The notes under the pieces are model-generated. The model was not told the DNA's origin. It saw only the letters and a program-made list of their open reading frames with translations, and made no database searches. This document shows positions 5,683 through 48,722 of a stretch of DNA of 64,000 nt, in pieces. The position numbers and the translations under genes are program-made. The number at the start of each line of letters is the position of its first letter. The stretch's first letter is position 1. Source of the stretch: Streptomyces sp. NBC_01454 (lineage in GTDB: Bacteria; Actinomycetota; Actinomycetes; Streptomycetales; Streptomycetaceae); the NCBI RefSeq assembly GCF_036227565.1, contig NZ_CP109460.1:868001-932000 (forward strand), in the 5' to 3' direction.

Positions 5683-6444
5683 TCAGACCGTCAATTCCGC
5701 TTGTGCTGCCGCCGCGGAGAGGGCGTCGTGGCGGATGTACCACTCGGTGGAGAGCATCTGCTCCCGGCCGGGCGCCGGGAGACCCGCGATCAGCCCCGGG
5801 GCGGCTCCCCGCGCCACCTCGGTACGGTGAGCCAGCAGGGCGGAGACCTTCTGCTCCAGCCAGGGGCGGACGTCGACGGTCGCGGTGATCCGCTCATCCG
5901 GAACGCTGTGCAGTGCCCTGCCGGTAGATGCCAGGTAGCCGCCCCACACCCGCATCGCCGAGTGGGGGTGCGCAGCCAGGTACAGGGCACTGGGCTGCCA
6001 GGGCTCACCGGCGTCCGGGGAGAACCGCTCCAGCCCGGCCGCCTGGAAGGCGAGCAGGGTGACCCGGTGCGTGTGCACGTGGTCCGGATGGCCGGTCAGC
6101 CCGCCGTAGGCATCATGCGTGACCATGATCTCCGGGCGAAACTCCCGGACATGTGCCACCACTCGCCGCACCGTCTCATCGAGCGGCGCCTCGCAGAACC
6201 GCGCCCGGCCCGGGGCCGACTGCGCAGCGCCGGCGTCGCCGTAGCCGAGCATCCTCGGCTTGCCGGCCCCGAGGATCCGCAACGCCTCTGCCAACTCCGC
6301 GGCGCGGGGAGTGTCCTGGGCCCAGGTTGCCGTGACCACCGCGGTGCGGGCGCCCGCGGCCGCGTGACGGGCGAGCACGCCGCCCGCCGACAGCGACTCG
6401 TCGTCCGGGTGAGCGAAAACCGCGAGCAGGCTCGGCACACGCAT
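5683..6444 (-). CDS. PIG-L/LmbE family deacetylase
   Basis: A 253-residue zinc-dependent N-acetylglucosaminyl deacetylase-fold protein. The N-terminal metal motif AHPDDE is at residues 11-16, and the distal His motif GLTGHPDHVHTHR is near residue 130. Families with this fold deacetylate GlcNAc-inositol in mycothiol synthesis (MshB) or cleave mycothiol conjugates (Mca), and many act on secondary metabolites. Sequence alone does not separate these. No signal peptide is seen. It is convergent with the LuxR-type gene and alone on its strand, and GGAAGG precedes the ATG. Confidence 0.88.
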   Translation of the reverse strand: MRVPSLLAVFAHPDDESLSAGGVLARHAAAGARTAVVTATWAQDTPRAAELAEALRILGAGKPRMLGYGDAGAAQSAPGRARFCEAPLDETVRRVVAHVREFRPEIMVTHDAYGGLTGHPDHVHTHRVTLLAFQAAGLERFSPDAGEPWQPSALYLAAHPHSAMRVWGGYLASTGRALHSVPDERITATVDVRPWLEQKVSALLAHRTEVARGAAPGLIAGLPAPGREQMLSTEWYIRHDALSAAAAQAELTV

Positions 6445-6594
6445 ACGCGGTCACCTTCCAGTGTGTGGACGTCGGTTCACACGAAGTATCGCGCTGCGGG
6501 GCAGCAGGGCGTACTCCTCCTCACGCGCCACCCCGCGAGCATCTACGGGGCAGGGTTCTTCCTGCGGTCCGCGGGCTGACCGTGCACCACCGTG

Positions 6595-6985
6595 TCAGTC
6601 ACGCTTGGTGTAGGTCGTGATCGTGACGCCGCTGTCGAAGACCTGGCCCGCGACCATGCGGTAGCGCTGCGGCGAGTAGGCAGAGTCGAAGAGCGGGACA
6701 CCCGAGCCGATCACGACGGGGTTGATCTTGACGATCAGCTCATCGATCTCGTCCCGGAGCGAGGCGGCGAGCTTGCCACCGCCGCAGAGGTACCGCGGCC
6801 CATCAGCACGGTGTCGAACCTCCGGTTCTCGGTCTCGGCAAGTCCCGGGACGAGGTGCCTGTAGGCCGTCGGAACCGTCTCCGGCATCTGCGCCAGCACC
6901 CATGCACCGTGGTCTTCCCCCTCGACGAACATCGTGTGCTCGGAGTCGGGGGAGGCGATGAACCCGTCCACCGTCGCGGCGCCCC
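6595..6985 (-). pseudogene. Decayed dihydrofolate-reductase-like (RibD C-terminal) gene
   Basis: Two pieces of one protein lie in different frames. The N-terminal part reads AATVDGFIASPD, then PETVPTAYRHLVPGL, then RRFDTVLMGRG. At a GGTACC site near 6793 the frame changes and the C-terminal part continues YLCGGGKLAASLRDEIDELI, NPVVIGSGVPLF, and ends TITTYTKRD. Intact relatives have about 70 more residues between MGRGTY and the LxGGG motif, so an internal out-of-frame deletion is inferred. The extreme N-terminus before ATVDGF is also replaced by unrelated sequence. No functional product is expected. Confidence 0.8.
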
Positions 6986-41373: not shown

Positions 41374-42129
41374 ATGACAAGCGTGCACGGAACTTCCCTG
41401 GACATCCCCACCCCGGACGGGATCGCCGACGCCTTCCTCGCGCACCCCGGCGACGGCGCGCCGCACCCCGGCGTCCTGCTCTACATGGACGCCTTCGGCC
41501 TGCGTCCCGCACTGGAGGAGATCGCCCGGCGCCTGGCCGGGCACGGCTACACGGTGCTGGTGCCCAACGTCCTGTACCGGGCCGGGCGCGCCCCCGTGGT
41601 GGACCTGCCGGACTTCATCGATCCTTCCCAGCGGCCGGAGCTCTTCAAGCCGCTCTTCGCTCTGGTCCAGTCGCTCAGCCCCGACCTGGCGATGCGGGAC
41701 GCCGGCGCCTACCTCGACTGGCTGGCCGCCTCCCCGCTGGTCGCCGAGGGACCGGTGGGCACCGCCGGCTACTGCATGGGCGGCGTCCTCGGCCTGCGCA
41801 CCGCCGCGGCCCACCCCGACCGGATCGCGGCCGTGGCCTCCTTCCACGCCGGCCGTCTGGTCACCGAGGCCGAGGACAGCCCGCACCGGCTCGTCGGCCG
41901 CATCACGGCGGAGCTGTACTTCGGCCACGCCGACCAGGACCCGTCGATGCCGGCCGACCAGATCACGACCCTGGAGCAGGCCCTGGACACCGCGGGCGTG
42001 ACCTACCGCAGCGAACGGTACGAAGGCGCCCCCCACGGCTACACCCAGGCCGACACCGCCGCGTACGACGCCGGGGCGGACGAACGGCACTGGCGCAATC
42101 TGCTGGAGCTCTTCGCGCACCGCCTCTGA
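41374..42129 (+). CDS. Dienelactone hydrolase family protein
   Basis: A 251-residue DLH-fold protein of usual length. The nucleophile motif is GYCMGG (Cys), with acid block ELYFGHADQDPSM and His in YEGAPHGYTQAD, all in the expected order. GVLLYMDAFGLRPALEEIAR is the N-terminal family block. It is the second DLH protein in the window and differs from the first in keeping the canonical C-terminal PHGF-type motif. It ends against the P450 operon, with a shared terminator between. Confidence 0.92.
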   Translation: MTSVHGTSLDIPTPDGIADAFLAHPGDGAPHPGVLLYMDAFGLRPALEEIARRLAGHGYTVLVPNVLYRAGRAPVVDLPDFIDPSQRPELFKPLFALVQSLSPDLAMRDAGAYLDWLAASPLVAEGPVGTAGYCMGGVLGLRTAAAHPDRIAAVASFHAGRLVTEAEDSPHRLVGRITAELYFGHADQDPSMPADQITTLEQALDTAGVTYRSERYEGAPHGYTQADTAAYDAGADERHWRNLLELFAHRL

Positions 42130-42147
42130 CCCCGCTGGCACCCCGAG

Positions 42148-42176
42148 GCGGCTACCCGACAGCGACGGGTAGCCGC
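42148..42176. terminator. Perfect 11-bp-stem bidirectional terminator
   Basis: GCGGCTACCCG-ACAGCGA-CGGGTAGCCGC, a perfect stem with a 7-base loop, lies between the convergent DLH and P450 genes. The P450 stop codon (42152-42154) and last codons are inside the stem. Confidence 0.8.
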
Positions 42177-43351
42177 TTGAGCGCGTGCGACCGGAACGAC
42201 GCACGCCACTCCAGCTGTTCGTCCGGTACGGCGAGCCGCAGCCGCGGGAACCTGTCGAGGAGGGTGGTCAGGGCGGTGCGGATTTCCAGCCGGGCCAGGG
42301 CGGCGCCCAGGCAGTAGTGGACGCCGTGGCCGAGGGCGAGATGTGCCTTGTCGGCGCGGTGGAGGTCGAAGCGGTCCGGTTCGGGGTAGCGGGCCGGGTC
42401 GCGGTGGGCGGACGCGAGGCCGAGCAGCACGGTGTCACCGGTCGGAATCCGTACGCCACCGATGTCGACGGGCTCGGTGGGAAAGCGCCGGATGGCCATC
42501 TGGTTGGGATGGGCGAAGCGGAACAGTTCCTCGACGGCCTCGGGCATCAGCGCGGGCCGCGCGCGCAGGGTGCGCAGCTGGTCGGGGTGGCGGAGCAGGG
42601 TGAGCAGTCCGCCGCTGATCAGGTGCTGGGTGTTCTCGCTGCCCGCCATGAGGATGAGGAAGGCCAGCGAGACCAGTTCGTCCTCGCTGAGCCGGGCACC
42701 GTCGTCCCGGGTGGCGATCAGGGAGGACAGCAGGTCGTCCGCGGGACGGGCGCGGCGGGAGGCGATGAGGTCCACGAGGTAGCGGTGGATGTGCCCGATC
42801 GCTTCGGCGGTGTGCCCCGGGTACTCGGGGGCGAACATGGCACCGACCCAGCCGGAGAACGTCCGGCTGTCCGCCTCGGGCACGGCCAGCAGGTCGCCGA
42901 TGATGACCAGGGGCAGGGGGTTGGCGAACGCCGTGACCAGGTCGGCCTGCCCCGACTCGGCCAGCCGGTCGGCGAGCTGACCGGCCACGGCGGCCACCCG
43001 CTCGCGGAGTTGCTCGACGTGCCGTGGCGTGAAGCCCTTGGAGACCAGCCGGCGCAGCCGCAGATGATCGGCCGGGTCGATGTTGAGGAGGTTGGCGTCC
43101 AGCGCGGGCGGCAGGGAGAAGCCCTGGTAACCGTTCGTGGAGTGTGCCTTGTTCACCGACAGCCGTGCGTCGGTGAGCCCGGCCCGGACGTCGCGCTCCC
43201 GGGTGACGAGCCAGACGGGGGAGCCGTCGGGCAGCGCGATCCTGTGCACCGGCCCTGCGCCGCGCAGCCGGGCGTAGGTGGGGTAGGGGTCCTGGAAGAA
43301 CTCCTGGTCGAAGGGCCGGCTGAGGGACGGGGCCGGGGTCTGCTGTGTCAT
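42152..43351 (-). CDS. Cytochrome P450
   Basis: A 399-residue bacterial P450. The I-helix reads LILMAGSENTQHLI, with Asn where Thr usually follows the acidic residue. ExxR is EELFRFAHP. The heme loop is LALGHGVHYCLGAALAR, with Leu in place of the usual Phe before GxG. The Cys ligand is intact. The I-helix change may alter proton delivery (inference). It is the last gene of a tightly coupled operon (XRE, ImmA/IrrE, MAB_1171c-like, P450); its ATG overlaps the membrane-protein stop. Redox partners are not encoded nearby. Confidence 0.92.
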   Translation of the reverse strand: MTQQTPAPSLSRPFDQEFFQDPYPTYARLRGAGPVHRIALPDGSPVWLVTRERDVRAGLTDARLSVNKAHSTNGYQGFSLPPALDANLLNIDPADHLRLRRLVSKGFTPRHVEQLRERVAAVAGQLADRLAESGQADLVTAFANPLPLVIIGDLLAVPEADSRTFSGWVGAMFAPEYPGHTAEAIGHIHRYLVDLIASRRARPADDLLSSLIATRDDGARLSEDELVSLAFLILMAGSENTQHLISGGLLTLLRHPDQLRTLRARPALMPEAVEELFRFAHPNQMAIRRFPTEPVDIGGVRIPTGDTVLLGLASAHRDPARYPEPDRFDLHRADKAHLALGHGVHYCLGAALARLEIRTALTTLLDRFPRLRLAVPDEQLEWRASFRSHALKRLPVAVG

Positions 43352-44538
43352 GTGCGTTCCTGGGTTGCCGGGTCGGCGGCGGAGTGCGCGGCCGCGGCCC
43401 GCACGATCGGGGACGTGGTGAAGGCGCGCGCCAGTTGGCGCTGGAAGGCGAGTTCGGCGGCGAGGTCCTGGGGCTCCGCCACGCGGGGCGTCTGCGCGTG
43501 GACGGCGGGCCGTCGTTGTGCGGCCAGCGCCTCCAGGGCGGCCCTGAGCTGTGCCGCCTCGACGGTGGCCGCCAGGTCGGTGCCGGCCAGGCCGGCCGCC
43601 CGGGCGTGTTCTTCGGCGGCGCCGGCCACCGCGGCCGGGGTCCAGACGCGCAGCGCCCACTGGGCGTCACGGATCTCCACGAGTCTGCGGTAGAGCCGGG
43701 TGCGCAGATCCGTGTCGGGTTCGAGGTGCAGCACCGGTTCGGGGATCCGGGAGGTGACCTCGCGGTGCAGCGGGCCCAGCTCCCGAAAGGCGCGGTAGTC
43801 GGTGAACCGCCGCCACAGCGCGGTGAGATGGCGGCCCCAGTCGGGGAGGATCCAGCCCAGCGTCTTGCTGAGGGTCGCGATGGTGACGGCGACCTGCGCC
43901 ACGGGCTCCCAGGCCTGCCCGCTGACGCCGAACTGGGCGGCGACGATGTCGGCGGCCCGGCAGCCGGTGTAGAGGAGGGCGAAGGGCAGTGTGGCGGCGA
44001 TGAGGTACAGCCCGCGGCGCATCCAGGGGTGCGGGGCGATCCTGGCGTAGCGCCAGCCGAGGACGCCCACATCGACCTGGTTCGCGGCGTAGGCGAGCAG
44101 ATAGAGGGTGAGGTAGGCCGGGTAGTACGTGGCGCTGTCGATGGCGAAGTCGTCGGGCTTCTCGCCGCGACTGGTGGCCACGGCGAACAGCGCCACCATG
44201 GCGACGAGTACGAGCCCGAGCCCGATCAGCCGTGGCCGTGCCTTGCGCCAGGCGAGGGGGGCTTCATGGGTGAGGTGGAGCAGCACGATCTGCTGGCACG
44301 CCGTCAGCAGGATGACGCAGCTCTGCGACAGCAGCCCGGAGAAGTTGACGATGCCGACGGCGCTGCTGGTGGCCGCCCAGACCGCGGGGGTGGAGACGGT
44401 ATAGGTGACGAACAGGAAGAAGAAGTTGCCGAGCAGCGCGACCTGCGTCACGGATCGGTCCGTGCGCAGCACGCGCAGTTTGTACAGCAGCGCCAGGCCT
44501 GCGACGACGGCGCACAAGGGGTAGAGAACGCTATTCAT
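43348..44538 (-). CDS. MAB_1171c-like membrane protein
   Basis: A 396-residue protein. Residues 1-215 hold about seven hydrophobic segments (for example YPLCAVVAGLALLYKL, IGLGLVLVAMVALFAVATS, GLYLIAATLPFALLYTGCRA). A cytoplasmic C-terminal half follows, rich in Ala/Arg/Leu helices (RLYRRLVEIRDAQWALRVW). This is the layout of the actinobacterial family annotated as putative transporter MAB_1171c, often found beside ImmA/IrrE peptidase genes. It overlaps the peptidase gene by eight bases and the P450 gene by four. Transport has not been shown for the family; a membrane sensor cleaved or controlled by the peptidase is possible. Confidence 0.8.
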   Translation of the reverse strand: MNSVLYPLCAVVAGLALLYKLRVLRTDRSVTQVALLGNFFFLFVTYTVSTPAVWAATSSAVGIVNFSGLLSQSCVILLTACQQIVLLHLTHEAPLAWRKARPRLIGLGLVLVAMVALFAVATSRGEKPDDFAIDSATYYPAYLTLYLLAYAANQVDVGVLGWRYARIAPHPWMRRGLYLIAATLPFALLYTGCRAADIVAAQFGVSGQAWEPVAQVAVTIATLSKTLGWILPDWGRHLTALWRRFTDYRAFRELGPLHREVTSRIPEPVLHLEPDTDLRTRLYRRLVEIRDAQWALRVWTPAAVAGAAEEHARAAGLAGTDLAATVEAAQLRAALEALAAQRRPAVHAQTPRVAEPQDLAAELAFQRQLARAFTTSPIVRAAAAHSAADPATQERT

Positions 44539-45103
44539 GACTTCCTCGGAAGGCGGGATTGTCCAGCGCACCGAGCCGGGCGACCAGCTCCTGCATGGCG
44601 GGTGGGACGGGCCGGACCTGGTCGGCGGTCCAGCTGCCGATCCGGCGCCCGATCAGGGAGCCGATGTACTCGGCTTCGGTCTCCGCCCAGGACCGGGCGT
44701 GTTCACGTCCCAGGGTCCGGCGGATCAGTGTGGGGTCGAGCGAGGGCAGCAGCAGCCGGGATGCCTCGGGGGTGAGGACCGGGCTCGCCTCGTGGTCGCA
44801 GATGAGGTGGCCCAGCTCGTGCAGGATGACCTGCTGCTGGTGCACCGGTGCGAGCCGCTGCTCGTAGACGACGTACTCCGCGCTCGCCGTGGAGACCCAG
44901 AGGCCGTCGGGGCTGCCCAGCGGCAGCGGGCAGGGCAGGAGCTGGATGGGCCGCCCGGAGCGCCGGCTGAGGTGCGCGCACAGGTCGTCGACGGACAGCT
45001 CGGCGCGGGCGGGCAGCTCCAGCTCGTCGACCCGACGTTCGCACGCCTCGCGCAGCCGTATCGCCTGCGGATCCACGTGCTTGTGCCGCCAGCGCATCAC
45101 CAT
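44531..45103 (-). CDS. ImmA/IrrE family metallo-endopeptidase
   Basis: A 190-residue zinc peptidase. The HExxH motif is VILHELGHLICDH near residue 95, with a downstream Glu-rich helix WAETEAEYIGSLIGRR that would supply the third ligand. There is no signal peptide. In characterised systems such peptidases cleave a partner HTH repressor after a stress signal (ImmA/ImmR, IrrE/DdrO). The gene directly upstream encodes an XRE HTH protein and its stop overlaps this start (TGATG), so the pair fits that model. The C-terminus overlaps the membrane-protein gene. Confidence 0.9.
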   Translation of the reverse strand: MVMRWRHKHVDPQAIRLREACERRVDELELPARAELSVDDLCAHLSRRSGRPIQLLPCPLPLGSPDGLWVSTASAEYVVYEQRLAPVHQQQVILHELGHLICDHEASPVLTPEASRLLLPSLDPTLIRRTLGREHARSWAETEAEYIGSLIGRRIGSWTADQVRPVPPAMQELVARLGALDNPAFRGSHE

Positions 45104-45603
45104 CACTGCGGAGTACGGTCGTCGCCACCCTGCCCCGGAAGGTCCTCTAGGGTCGCCCGAGCGGCTTCGGCGGTGGTGACCAACCGGGTGATGAGATGGC
45201 TCAGTTCGGTCAGCGAGGAGGCGGGCTCGGCGGGGCCTGTCTGGCGCAGCGCCACGCTCTCCACGCGATGGGTGCGCAGCTTCCTGAGCAGCTCCAGCTC
45301 GGAGTTGACGTCGTGGAAGACCTGCTCGTCGAGGAAGTAGGCCACGCGGGAGATGCCCAGACTGTGGGCCACCTTGACGAGGGTCTCCACGGTCAGGTTG
45401 GTCCCGTCCGCGGATTCGGCCGCGGCCAGGGTGCGCTTCGAGACCCCGGCGATTTCCGCGAGCCGGGCCAGGGTGACGGGGCCTTCGGGGTGGTGCTGGC
45501 GAATGTGCCGGAGCCTGCGGGCGATGGCGGTCTTGGCGGCGTGCGCGGTCTCGTCCGGACCGGCGGACATCCCTGCCGCCCTGGCGAGTTCGTGACGGTC
45601 CAC
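45103..45603 (-). CDS. XRE-family regulator paired with ImmA/IrrE peptidase
   Basis: A 166-residue protein with an N-terminal HTH (about 25-85: LRHIRQHHPEGPVTLARLAE, GVSKRTLAAAESADGTNLTV, LVKVAHSLGISRVAYFL). A C-terminal helical tail (HDVNSELELLRKLRTHRVES) is probably for dimerisation or recognition by the peptidase. GTG at 45603 follows GGAGG with seven-base spacing. It leads a four-gene operon. By analogy with ImmR/DdrO it should repress the operon until cleaved (inference). Confidence 0.88.
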   Translation of the reverse strand: MDRHELARAAGMSAGPDETAHAAKTAIARRLRHIRQHHPEGPVTLARLAEIAGVSKRTLAAAESADGTNLTVETLVKVAHSLGISRVAYFLDEQVFHDVNSELELLRKLRTHRVESVALRQTGPAEPASSLTELSHLITRLVTTAEAARATLEDLPGQGGDDRTPQ

Positions 45604-45788
45604 CCTTGTCCCTCCATGGCGTGTGCACTACAGGATCGCACGCGGCACGATGCCCCCGGTGCAGGGTACGCGGCGCCGCTGACCTGCGTACGGAGAGCGG
45701 AGACGCCCGGCCCCGGCCACGGCCGGCACCCCGGCGGAGTGCGGTGCGGCCGGAACGACGTGGTCCCTGGCCGGAACGAACGTGCCGG

Positions 45789-46748
45789 TCAGATGCCCGC
45801 GCTCGCGTCGTGGACGATGTGCAGCCCGGGGCAGATGTGCGGGGCCGGCGGCGGCCACGGCGAGGACAGCGCGGATTCCACCGCCCTCGACTCCCGGTCG
45901 GCCCGTTCGGCCTCGCTGCGGGCCGGGCCCAGGCGGCCCCGCCAGATCAGTTCTTCGGCGATGCCATAGGCCCAGGAGCCGAGCCAGCCGCTCTGCCGTG
46001 GGCAGTGCAGCGCCAGCGCCCCCCGCAACGCGTCATAGGCCCGCAGAAGTTGGCGGGACAGTTCGGCGTCGGGATGCTGGGCGTGCGGACGCTCGTGCGG
46101 TGGCGGAACCGGGCAGTCCTCCAGCAGGTGCGCCACCCGCCGGAGCAGCAACTCCGCACCGTCCTTGAGCGGCTGGGGCGCCGAGCCCTTCGGGCACGAC
46201 ACCTCCCAGAGCTCTTCGAGCGGGTCACCGTCCCGGGACAACGGCGGTGCGGGCGCCTCCCCGCACGGGGATTCGTCCGCCGCGGCCGGGAAGGGCGCAC
46301 CGCCCTCGGGGCGGCCACCGCAGTGCTGCGCACACTCCGGGACAGGGCCCGTCACGGGAGAGTGCCGCAGGAGGTGTTCGTGGTGCAGTTGGGACCACAG
46401 ATCACGCGGGGCGGCCGGTCCGGTGAGCAGGCGCCAGACGGGGCCGATGTTCCAGCTGTAGCCGGTGACGCGTTCTATGTGCCCGGAGCCGCGCGTGGCG
46501 AATACGGCCAGCCGCCCGGTGGAATTGTCCTGCACCTGCGTGTAGAGGCTCTCCCCGAGCTGCCAGGCCGCGCCGATACCGAACGGCGCCTCCTGAGCGG
46601 CCGTTGCGCCTTTGTGCGCGGCGACGGGAAGAAGCGTGTGCAATGCCGTGTCGCCCGCCGGATTTTCGCGGTCGACGTCGACGTCCACAAGGAAGGGAAT
46701 GCGTCCTCGGCGGCTGCCGGAGAGAGAACTGCTGCGCTCAGCCGCCAT
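45789..46748 (-). CDS. Unknown protein upstream of the XRE-peptidase operon
   Basis: A 319-residue protein of no recognised family. The N-terminus carries RIPFLVDVDVDRENPAGDTA, the middle has LYTQVQDNSTGRLAVFATRG and two nearby Cys/His groups (ECAQHCGG), and the C-terminus ends HICPGLHIVHDASAGI. No membrane segment or signal peptide. GGGAG precedes the ATG at 46748. It lies 185 bp upstream of the XRE gene on the same strand and has its own well-formed promoter with nested palindromes, so it may belong to the same regulatory unit. Confidence 0.65.
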   Translation of the reverse strand: MAAERSSSLSGSRRGRIPFLVDVDVDRENPAGDTALHTLLPVAAHKGATAAQEAPFGIGAAWQLGESLYTQVQDNSTGRLAVFATRGSGHIERVTGYSWNIGPVWRLLTGPAAPRDLWSQLHHEHLLRHSPVTGPVPECAQHCGGRPEGGAPFPAAADESPCGEAPAPPLSRDGDPLEELWEVSCPKGSAPQPLKDGAELLLRRVAHLLEDCPVPPPHERPHAQHPDAELSRQLLRAYDALRGALALHCPRQSGWLGSWAYGIAEELIWRGRLGPARSEAERADRESRAVESALSSPWPPPAPHICPGLHIVHDASAGI

Positions 46749-46864
46749 GCGGGTCTCCCGTCGCGGTTCGGCAGGCGGCAACAGCCGTGTCCGGCTGGGC
46801 CGCAGAAGCTATGACGGTCACTGGTCGTCCCCCTTTGGCCATCTTTCGAAGGCTCCGCTTCGAG

Positions 46865-47042: not shown

Positions 47043-47696
47043 CTACGCCGGTTCGGGTGCCTGGGTGCCGGCACGGGCCCGGCGGCGGACCCGGTCGAGC
47101 AGGCCGGCGGGGTCCGGTTCGGCCTGGAGGGCGCGGAGCAGCAGCAGCCACAGGTCGTGCAGATGGGCCTCGATGTGCCGGCGCCCCTCCAGCGCGTCGG
47201 AGACGGTGTGCAGCCCGAAGAAGGCGCAGACGACGCTGTGGGCGGTCGCGGCGGGCGACACCCCGGCGGCGAGTTCGCCGTTGTCGCCGGCCTCTTCGAG
47301 GAGCTGGGTGACCGCGTCGATCCAGCCCAGGAACGGGGCGGGTAGCTCGGTCTCGATGGCCTTGCGTTCGGCCCAGAGACGGGATCCGGCCCGTACGACG
47401 ATGTCGTCACGGAACGACCGGGCCACGTCGAAGCTCAGACCGACGAGCTTCTCCAGGGCGGGCAGGCCGGGCTTCCGGTTGCGGGTGATCAATTGCGGCC
47501 AGGTGGCGAAATGCTCCTCGACGATGGCGAGGGCGAGTTTCTCCTTGCTGGCGAAATGAAAATAGATGGCACCGCTGGTGCGGCCGGAATGTGCGCTGAT
47601 ATCGCTGATGCTGGTGCCGGCGTAACCCCGCTCGTCGAACAGGGCCGCCGCCGCCTCCAGAAGGAACCTGCGTGTCGTCTTCGCCCGGATCTGCAC
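47043..47696 (-). CDS. TetR-family gamma-butyrolactone receptor (ScbR-like)
   Basis: A 217-residue TetR-type repressor. The HTH region reads FLLEAAAALFDERGYAGTSI and GAIYFHFASKEKLALAIVEE, matching butyrolactone autoregulator receptors of Streptomyces (ArpA/ScbR/BarA). The C-terminal half holds the ligand domain. GTG at 47696 is five bases after GAGG and gives the short N-terminus normal for this family. It is divergent from an AfsA-like synthase gene. Whether it is a true receptor or a pseudo-receptor cannot be decided by eye. Confidence 0.85.
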   Translation of the reverse strand: MQIRAKTTRRFLLEAAAALFDERGYAGTSISDISAHSGRTSGAIYFHFASKEKLALAIVEEHFATWPQLITRNRKPGLPALEKLVGLSFDVARSFRDDIVVRAGSRLWAERKAIETELPAPFLGWIDAVTQLLEEAGDNGELAAGVSPAATAHSVVCAFFGLHTVSDALEGRRHIEAHLHDLWLLLLRALQAEPDPAGLLDRVRRRARAGTQAPEPA

Positions 47697-47757
47697 GTAC
47701 ACCTCAGACGTCGTTCTCGTGCCGGCGGCCCGCAATCTATCGCGCTGCGCCACCCGG

Positions 47758-47801: not shown

Positions 47802-48722
47802 ATGAGTTCCTCAACTGCTGGCACTGCCGGAAAGAGTGAGCCGCTCAGCCGGTCCCGCACCGTCGCGCGGGAACTGGTGCACCGGACTTCCGTGGCGGAG
47901 GTCCTCCTCACGGATGTACGGCGGACGGACACCCCCGACCTCTTCGCCGCGGCCGCGTCGTGGCCGCGCGCCCATGCGACGTTCCCCCGCGACGGGTCAC
48001 AGCGGCACAGCCCGTTGATCCTGGTGGAAACGCTGCGTCAGCTCGGTCTGTACATCCCCCTGCGGTTCTACGCCGTTCCCGCGGCGTGCCACGCGGTCAT
48101 CACCGACCTGTACTTCCGCCTCGCGCCCGGCAGTGCGCCGCCGGCTCACTCCGGCGCGACCGAGGTCACCTGTCACGCGCGGGTGAGCGCCGTACGGCGC
48201 TCCACGCACCACGGCGTGTGCGCACTGCGCCTGGACGCCGTCTTCACCGTCTGTGGACTGCCCTTCGGGCAGGGGGGCGGCGGTGTGCGGTTCCTGAGCG
48301 AGGCGCAGTACCGGGCGCTGCGCGGCAGGACCGCCCAGGTCGCGGTGGCCGTCCCGTCCCCGGACGGGGCTCACCGGCCGCCGGCCGCGGTACTGGCCGT
48401 GAACCACCCGCAGGACGCGGTGCTTGCCGTCGCCGGGGACGGGCTGCTCCTCGCGCCGGCCGACCCGCTGCACCCGTTCCTCTTCGACCACCCGACCGAT
48501 CATGTGCCGGGCATGGCGCTCCTGGAGGCCGCACGGCAGGCCGCCTCGTACAGCAGCGGGGGCACCCTGCGCCGGCCGCGCGCCGGCCGCATGAAGGCCG
48601 TCCGGTTCACCGAACTCGCCCCGCCCGCCCGGGTGCTGTGCACGCAGTACGACTCGCTCTGCGTCTTCCGCGTCACCCAGGGCGGCACACGGACGGCCTA
48701 CGGGACCCTCAGTTACCAATAG
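47802..48722 (+). CDS. AfsA/ScbA family gamma-butyrolactone biosynthesis protein
   Basis: A 306-residue protein with two hot-dog-fold AfsA domains. The first (about 20-150) has LVHRTSVAEVLLTDVRRTDT and SPLILVETLRQLGLYIPLRF. The second (about 200-306) has LLAPADPLHPFLFDHPTDHV, then PGMALLEAARQA. These are the conserved blocks of AfsA/ScbA/BarX. Such enzymes condense a beta-ketoacyl-ACP with dihydroxyacetone phosphate. No Shine-Dalgarno precedes the ATG and a -10-like hexamer lies about 11 bases before, so a leaderless message is possible. Divergent from the receptor gene. Confidence 0.92.
   Translation: MSSSTAGTAGKSEPLSRSRTVARELVHRTSVAEVLLTDVRRTDTPDLFAAAASWPRAHATFPRDGSQRHSPLILVETLRQLGLYIPLRFYAVPAACHAVITDLYFRLAPGSAPPAHSGATEVTCHARVSAVRRSTHHGVCALRLDAVFTVCGLPFGQGGGGVRFLSEAQYRALRGRTAQVAVAVPSPDGAHRPPAAVLAVNHPQDAVLAVAGDGLLLAPADPLHPFLFDHPTDHVPGMALLEAARQAASYSSGGTLRRPRAGRMKAVRFTELAPPARVLCTQYDSLCVFRVTQGGTRTAYGTLSYQ

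Follow-up and report, generated by a model that had tools for sequence, protein, structure and literature searches.

We analyzed a 64,000-nucleotide stretch of the 9.46-Mb genome (G000) of Streptomyces sp. NBC_01454 (C1:868001-932000, hereafter the window), and focused our attention on a minus-strand operon encoding, in order, an XRE protein, an ImmA/IrrE-type peptidase, a membrane protein of the MAB_1171c family (MAB) and a cytochrome P450. The unit that recurs is a three-gene cassette composed of XRE, ImmA and MAB, found across Streptomyces and beyond, and followed by a fourth gene that changes. The best explanation for this arrangement, to which we give an even chance, is that of a membrane receptor acting on a peptidase, whose removal of a repressor turns on an enzyme. 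The cassette would be a plug-in switch not described before, instead of a P450 pathway. Positions given below are those of the window unless preceded by C1, and L numbers designate the loci used for comparison.

A preliminary description of the window had reported the four genes, their coordinates and their overlaps, all of which were borne out by the open reading frames and by family profiles; the four genes exist as described and constitute a single operon. The XRE gene (45103..45603, 166 amino acids from a GTG start) matches PF01381 HTH_3 with 30.2 bits (cut-off 23); our own gene caller chose an ATG at 45570 as its start, and the relatives L150 and L151 were called with 166 amino acids. It overlaps the peptidase gene by one base (TGATG). 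The peptidase (44531..45103, 190 amino acids) contains HELGH and a downstream glutamate, and its match to PF06114 Peptidase_M78, 24.3 bits, is barely above the cut-off of 22. After an eight-base overlap, the MAB_1171c gene (43348..44538, 396 amino acids) matches NF042915 with 206.3 bits (cut-off 100) and PF20182 DUF6545 with 88 bits, and it shares four bases (ATGA) with the P450 gene (42152..43351, 399 amino acids; PF00067, 103.8 bits). Judged by the four-gene operon, the nearest named relatives are Streptomyces kronopolitis and S. sioyaensis.

To follow the cassette in other genomes, 105 loci and the window were surveyed, and 17 loci found with the window MAB protein were then added; genes were called with a simple codon-usage caller written for this analysis, and the duplicates L152 (of L001) and L161 (of L082) were excluded from the MAB counts. 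The MAB_1171c family was detected in at least 48 of 61 Streptomyces genomes, the present one included, and in at least 98 of 131 Streptomycetaceae, at least 64 of 394 genomes of the class and at least 10 of 296 of the phylum. These counts are lower bounds, because thresholds varied among scans and because, in the Streptomycetaceae, class and phylum scans, scoring was limited to a few top candidates from each genome. Among 124 MAB genes longer than 340 amino acids, 104 have an ImmA gene directly 5' on the same strand, preceded in 67 cases by an XRE gene, and in six further cases the MAB gene is the second of a tandem pair that follows ImmA. The arrangement was also seen in 40 set-aside loci (one per genome, selected according to rank from the hits in other genera or families, hits near a contig end being skipped): ImmA lies directly 5' of 36 of 41 MAB genes (17 of 20 for other genera of Streptomycetaceae, 19 of 21 for further families), and all 36 peptidases carry HExxH. 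When the sets are pooled, this holds for 141 of 166 MAB genes of at least 320 amino acids, with overlapping reading frames in 81 of the 141.

Moreover, pairwise distances in 82 intact triples agree with r of 0.88 for ImmA-MAB, 0.77 for XRE-ImmA and 0.73 for XRE-MAB, the ImmA-MAB value being favored by the shorter length of XRE; the largest r obtained by permutation, carried out for XRE-MAB only, was 0.08. Such correlations show common inheritance, not contact. Copies are also present on 11 plasmid records. In the genome studied here, XRE, ImmA and MAB follow one another in three cassettes, those of the window, of L132 (before a methyltransferase gene) and of L133 (before another P450 gene), so that exchange of the fourth gene can be seen within this one genome. 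At a further locus of this genome, L134, ImmA, MAB and a flavin adenine dinucleotide (FAD) oxidoreductase-like gene are found with no XRE gene directly upstream. The preliminary description had called the joining of a peptidase-switch module to a seven-helix membrane protein non-standard, a view that stands: the combination recurs widely and no PADLOC family of anti-phage defense systems fits it, as none was matched by the ImmA, MAB or P450 proteins and XRE gave weak helix-turn-helix matches, the best with an E value of 0.0003.

Several variants of the layout were observed. In L052, L054-L056, L058, L169 and L173, the MAB gene comes first and is followed, after a gap of approximately 290-400 bases, by XRE-ImmA; L052, L054-L056 and L058 form a clade among MAB genes lacking ImmA upstream, and in L052 a TetR-type regulator gene directly precedes MAB. 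The tandem MAB pairs behind one ImmA (L114, L117, L121, L122, L128 and L138) could possibly form receptor heterodimers, and all six of these loci fall in the clade holding most of the FAD oxidoreductase-type cassettes. Two additional MAB copies of this genome, L130 (C1:7015370-7016359) and L131 (C1:5931242-5932129), seem broken or partial, one having an internal TGA and the other being a partial match; they were called with 264 and 96 amino acids, respectively, and XRE and ImmA stretches lie in front of L130. In L093, a convergent bestrophin-like gene (6171-6947; PF14023) adjoins MAB, and genes of 258-260 amino acids occupy the matching place in L094, L099, L104, L108 and L123, that of L093 being the only one identified.

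The fourth gene varies among cassettes. The next gene on the same strand within 250 base pairs was recorded for 113 non-redundant MAB genes. P450 genes account for 24 of the cases, followed by genes for FAD-dependent oxidoreductase-like proteins (10), short-chain dehydrogenases (7), amidases (6), PAP2-like membrane proteins of about 196 amino acids (6) and amidohydrolases (4); an aldo-keto reductase, a methyltransferase, a thiamine-binding protein and an unnamed family were found twice each. Another MAB gene follows in six cases, an unlabelled gene in two, a distant gene only in 12 and no same-strand gene in 19. The nine remaining are single cases, encoding an AMP-ligase, a PfkB kinase, an esterase-like protein, a polysaccharide deacetylase, an SbcD-like phosphoesterase, Trypco2, two proteins without a family, and an ImmA protein, which is therefore not an effector. 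Each cluster takes its name from the one to five members that were scanned; of the three scanned in the FAD cluster, one had no family match. Most of the named families are enzymes of small-molecule chemistry. The sample is enriched in P450 genes, as 17 loci had been included for their resemblance to the window; the first survey had a P450 next in 18 of 75 cases, four of which (the window, L001, L002 and L005) had likewise been included for resemblance. The preliminary description had counted the P450 as part of the defining set and proposed an oxidation pathway, a term that is too narrow, since the next gene is a P450 in only 24 of 113 cases and otherwise something else or nothing.

The co-occurrence of all four genes, which the preliminary description had proposed to look for, was nevertheless found: 33 MAB genes were called with a P450 gene behind them, 25 of these with XRE and ImmA in front, and 13 of the 25 lie outside the window's MAB clade. 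By tblastn, MAB is followed by a P450 in 14 of the 17 loci found with the window MAB protein (split among three frames in L165; none was detected in L161, L163 and L166), and 11 have all four proteins in order. This gene order is no accident. When next-gene labels were placed on a quick tree of the 113 MAB rows, 40 changes were counted, compared with a mean of 80.7 for shuffled labels; 8 changes involve P450 (at least 6 on well-supported branches) and 8 involve FAD oxidoreductase (at least 7 on well-supported branches). A single count excluding the 39 of 113 rows without a nearby gene label gave 19 changes over 74 rows. The labels are thus clustered yet change repeatedly, so cassettes retain a fourth gene for a time and then exchange it. 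Outside Streptomycetaceae, the small PAP2-like protein comes next in 3 of 20 loci (L191, L204 and L205, twice in the latter), and two shorter look-alikes, known by likeness only, are found in L195 and L201; the PAP2-like protein may represent an earlier partner of the cassette.

The best solved relatives of the window P450 include 7wex, 9cjg, PikC, a vitamin D hydroxylase and EryF (CYP107A1), and the protein is therefore CYP107-like. The I-helix AGSENT and the heme loop LALGHGVHYCLG read earlier were both seen in it, together with the heme cysteine loop HYCLG and an ExxR motif present as EELFR. In 29 aligned cassette P450s longer than 300 amino acids, the I-helix has SEN where HET is common in 15 (the group of the window), YEN in a second group of seven that includes one YEP, YDN in L005 and HETT in six; every one of the 29 retains the heme cysteine and ExxR, and relative to the HETT group the heme loop carries Leu in place of Phe. 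The unusual I-helix emphasized in the preliminary description is thus real, but it characterizes one group of P450s and is no defining feature of the system.

How these parts may work together is suggested by related switches. ImmA-type peptidases are known to cut XRE repressors, as described for ImmA/ImmR in ICEBs1 and IrrE/DdrO in Deinococcus, and their activators are the RapI-PhrI cell-signaling pathway or RecA in ICEBs1 and free zinc in Deinococcus (PMC2701414, PMC10233336 and PMC7907104). In the cassette, MAB is constant, its gene mostly overlaps that of ImmA and its distances agree best with those of ImmA, and it is therefore the obvious candidate for the activator; given its predicted topology, this activator would be a membrane receptor. 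We propose that the EspR-like XRE protein would repress the operon from sites just 5' of its own gene, and that MAB_1171c would recognize a small molecule outside the cell or in the membrane. Ligand binding would then lead the cytosolic DUF6545 domain to activate or release ImmA/IrrE, which would cut the repressor, and the operon, including its last gene, would be expressed. The product of that gene, most often an enzyme and here a CYP107-like P450, would modify the signal molecule or a related compound; it may remove the signal, as the amidases and hydrolases suggest, or make it.

The first element of this proposal is the membrane protein. The AlphaFold2 model of the window MAB has a mean predicted local distance difference test score of 86.8, and it predicts seven helices in a G protein-coupled receptor (GPCR)-like arrangement (residues 1-240; 43819..44538), oriented N-out/C-in according to charge counts, plus a cytosolic helical domain corresponding to DUF6545 (residues 242-388; 43375..43815). 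No sequence relative of MAB was found in the PDB, Foldseek gave no significant match to the model, and no convincing PDB match was obtained for the cytosolic domain. R284, D291, E327 and E362 are unchanged throughout a 61-row alignment. On the basis of the model, MAB_1171c looks like a seven-helix membrane receptor, and sensing at the membrane by the cassette is plausible from its fold and topology.

The NCBIfam family name is, nonetheless, "putative transporter", and the protein could instead export the product of the enzyme or import its substrate, XRE-ImmA merely regulating a transport operon. A transporter would be compatible with the phenotype of a MAB_1171c mutant of Mycobacterium abscessus, which formed approximately half of the parental biofilm and had lower minimal inhibitory concentrations (MIC) of clarithromycin and cefoxitin (PMC8707978, the sole paper naming MAB_1171c that our literature search found). 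However, the MIC phenotype is not specific, because the other mutants of the same MIC group also showed clarithromycin values of 0.5-2 compared with 2 in the parent. Moreover, the odd number of helices, the conserved cytosolic domain and the predicted N-out/C-in topology argue against transport, as does the fact that R174, which lies at the cytosolic edge, is the only one of the 30 best conserved sites to be both charged and located in a predicted membrane helix. The enzyme gene is also absent beside many cassettes, and overall we regard a transporter as unlikely.

A different role for the enzyme would be to make or finish the very signal sensed by MAB_1171c, resulting in positive feedback and chemical communication. 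The four bases shared by the genes for the P450 and the presumed receptor, the clustering of next-gene labels along MAB clades (40 changes against 80.7) and the presence of a gamma-butyrolactone ScbR/ScbA pair 1.4-2.2 kb away, though without a link to the operon, would all agree with such an autoinducer loop. Nevertheless, amidases, amidohydrolases and a deacetylase among the next genes point to breakdown as readily as to synthesis, and many cassettes are without the enzyme, which makes the loop a rather unlikely account of the family.

Regarding the peptidase, H95, E96, H99 and E141 are unchanged across 44 aligned cassette peptidases, and HExxH is found in 151 of the 153 profile-matching peptidases of the fetched loci, a count that still includes the duplicates L152 and L161. 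Preservation of the zinc site would also fit a trigger inside the cell, with MAB_1171c only anchoring or restraining the peptidase: in Deinococcus, zinc that is available after oxidative stress activates IrrE (PMC7907104). Against this, the seven-helix region is about as conserved as the cytosolic part (means of 1.57 and 1.65 bits for the two membrane halves and 1.55 for the rest), which is more than an anchor needs; the argument is a weak one, and we consider an intracellular trigger unlikely. That the cassette is a toxin-antitoxin or addiction module carrying a passenger gene is very improbable, as a two-gene addiction pair leaves the constant third and the changing fourth gene unexplained, even though XRE-COG2856 pairs have been proposed as toxin-antitoxin systems (PMC2701414), an annotated plasmid copy (L005) bears the label "toxin" and 11 plasmid records have copies.

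The receptor-controlled switch further implies a repressor acting next to its own gene. A profile built from 40 cassette XRE proteins matches EspR (3r1f) nearly end to end (E 5e-41), and the window protein alone gives a weak, collinear match of approximately 20 bits (E 0.004-0.007); by sequence comparison, the cassette repressor family is EspR-like and the window copy is probably a divergent member of it. EspR itself is a free-standing nucleoid protein of Mycobacterium and is not known to have peptidase or receptor partners. The words TCAACT/AGTTGA, TTAACT/AGTTAA and TGCAAC/GTTGCA occur in 29 of 46 non-redundant XRE upstream regions and in 67 of 495 controls, i.e., upstream regions of other genes at the same loci, figures to be read with the knowledge that the words were picked after viewing part of the first set and that XRE regions are somewhat higher in A+T. 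In set-aside Streptomycetaceae, TCAACT/AGTTGA alone was found in 6 of 12 XRE regions and 5 of 73 controls (p 7e-4). Near-palindromic sites are present in some XRE upstream regions, twice in L083. Repeated TGCAAC/GTTGCA-type sites occur in some relatives, most clearly in the near relatives L157 and L159, where they are doubled. For the palindrome form CAAC-N0-8-GTTG, the set-aside loci gave no enrichment (2 of 28 XRE regions compared with 7 of 143 controls).

Two results weigh in part against the proposed switch. In set-aside loci of other families, TCAACT/AGTTGA is not significantly enriched (3 of 16 against 8 of 70), and the region 5' of the window XRE gene (45604..45700, minus strand), the putative promoter/operator by reference to the sites of some relatives, has neither a consensus site nor the relatives' operator words, only GTGC-like remnants.

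Comparison with known systems helps to place the cassette. In BlaR1-BlaI and MecR1-MecI, a membrane receptor causes a repressor to be cut and an enzyme gene to be turned on, receptor and protease being one protein and the enzyme a beta-lactamase; the cassette would work in a similar way, but with two genes for receptor and peptidase and with a varying enzyme. Eukaryotic GPCRs and microbial rhodopsins have, like the MAB model, seven similarly arranged helices with N-out/C-in topology, which for MAB is a prediction, whereas no G protein is found among the four cassette genes and MAB had no significant Foldseek hit. As in ImmR-ImmA (ICEBs1, TnSmu1) and DdrO-IrrE (Deinococcus), an XRE-type repressor gene stands with that of an HExxH peptidase, and autoregulation by XRE is usual for repressors of this kind (PMC12565409). 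Compared with these pairs, the cassette adds a constant gene for a predicted seven-helix protein, closely linked to that of the peptidase, as well as a repressor family of the EspR type and a fourth gene that changes. Conservons (cvnA-D, with an accessory cvnE P450 or cvnF) are also actinobacterial signaling operons that sometimes end in a P450, as described in PMC13343842, but no kinase-like CvnA, roadblock CvnB, CvnC or GTPase CvnD family is among the matches of the four proteins. XRE-ImmA switches and P450s at the end of signaling operons are already known, while our literature search found no description of a receptor-peptidase-repressor cassette.

If the receptor-controlled switch is correct, 48 of 61 Streptomyces genomes would contain one or more members of a family of transmembrane sensors that bears the NCBI label "putative transporter", with a peptidase partner sometimes labelled "toxin", and seven-helix reception would be joined to repressor proteolysis without phosphorylation. 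Moreover, it would give a handle on orphan enzymes, as the enzyme adjoining each receptor would hint at the chemistry of the ligand. A tentative extension, possible rather than probable, is a modular signaling class in which the cytosolic domain of a GPCR-like receptor directly switches a separate ImmA-type peptidase that destroys an EspR-type repressor; each cassette would have its own receptor, operator and ligand-making or ligand-destroying enzyme, providing several parallel private chemical channels per Streptomyces genome.

Around the operon, the upstream neighbor (45789-46781, minus strand, 330 amino acids) is without any Pfam or NCBIfam match. Beyond it, genes for an ScbR-type receptor (47043-47753, minus strand; NF041196, 212.5 bits) and an ScbA/AfsA gamma-butyrolactone synthase (47802-48722, plus strand; NF041195, 235.5 bits) are divergently arranged, 1.4 and 2.2 kb from the operon, and nothing ties this pair to it. 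On the other side, the downstream neighbor (41374-42129), of the dienelactone hydrolase family, is convergent to the operon. Between the two, an 11-pair, terminator-like hairpin (42148..42176, minus strand) closes the operon and overlaps the stop codon of the P450 gene. A simple terminator scan gave no match at this 3' end because it requires a T run, which the hairpin does not have; the fold predicted for positions 42130-42190 reaches -37.4 kcal/mol (z -3.58).

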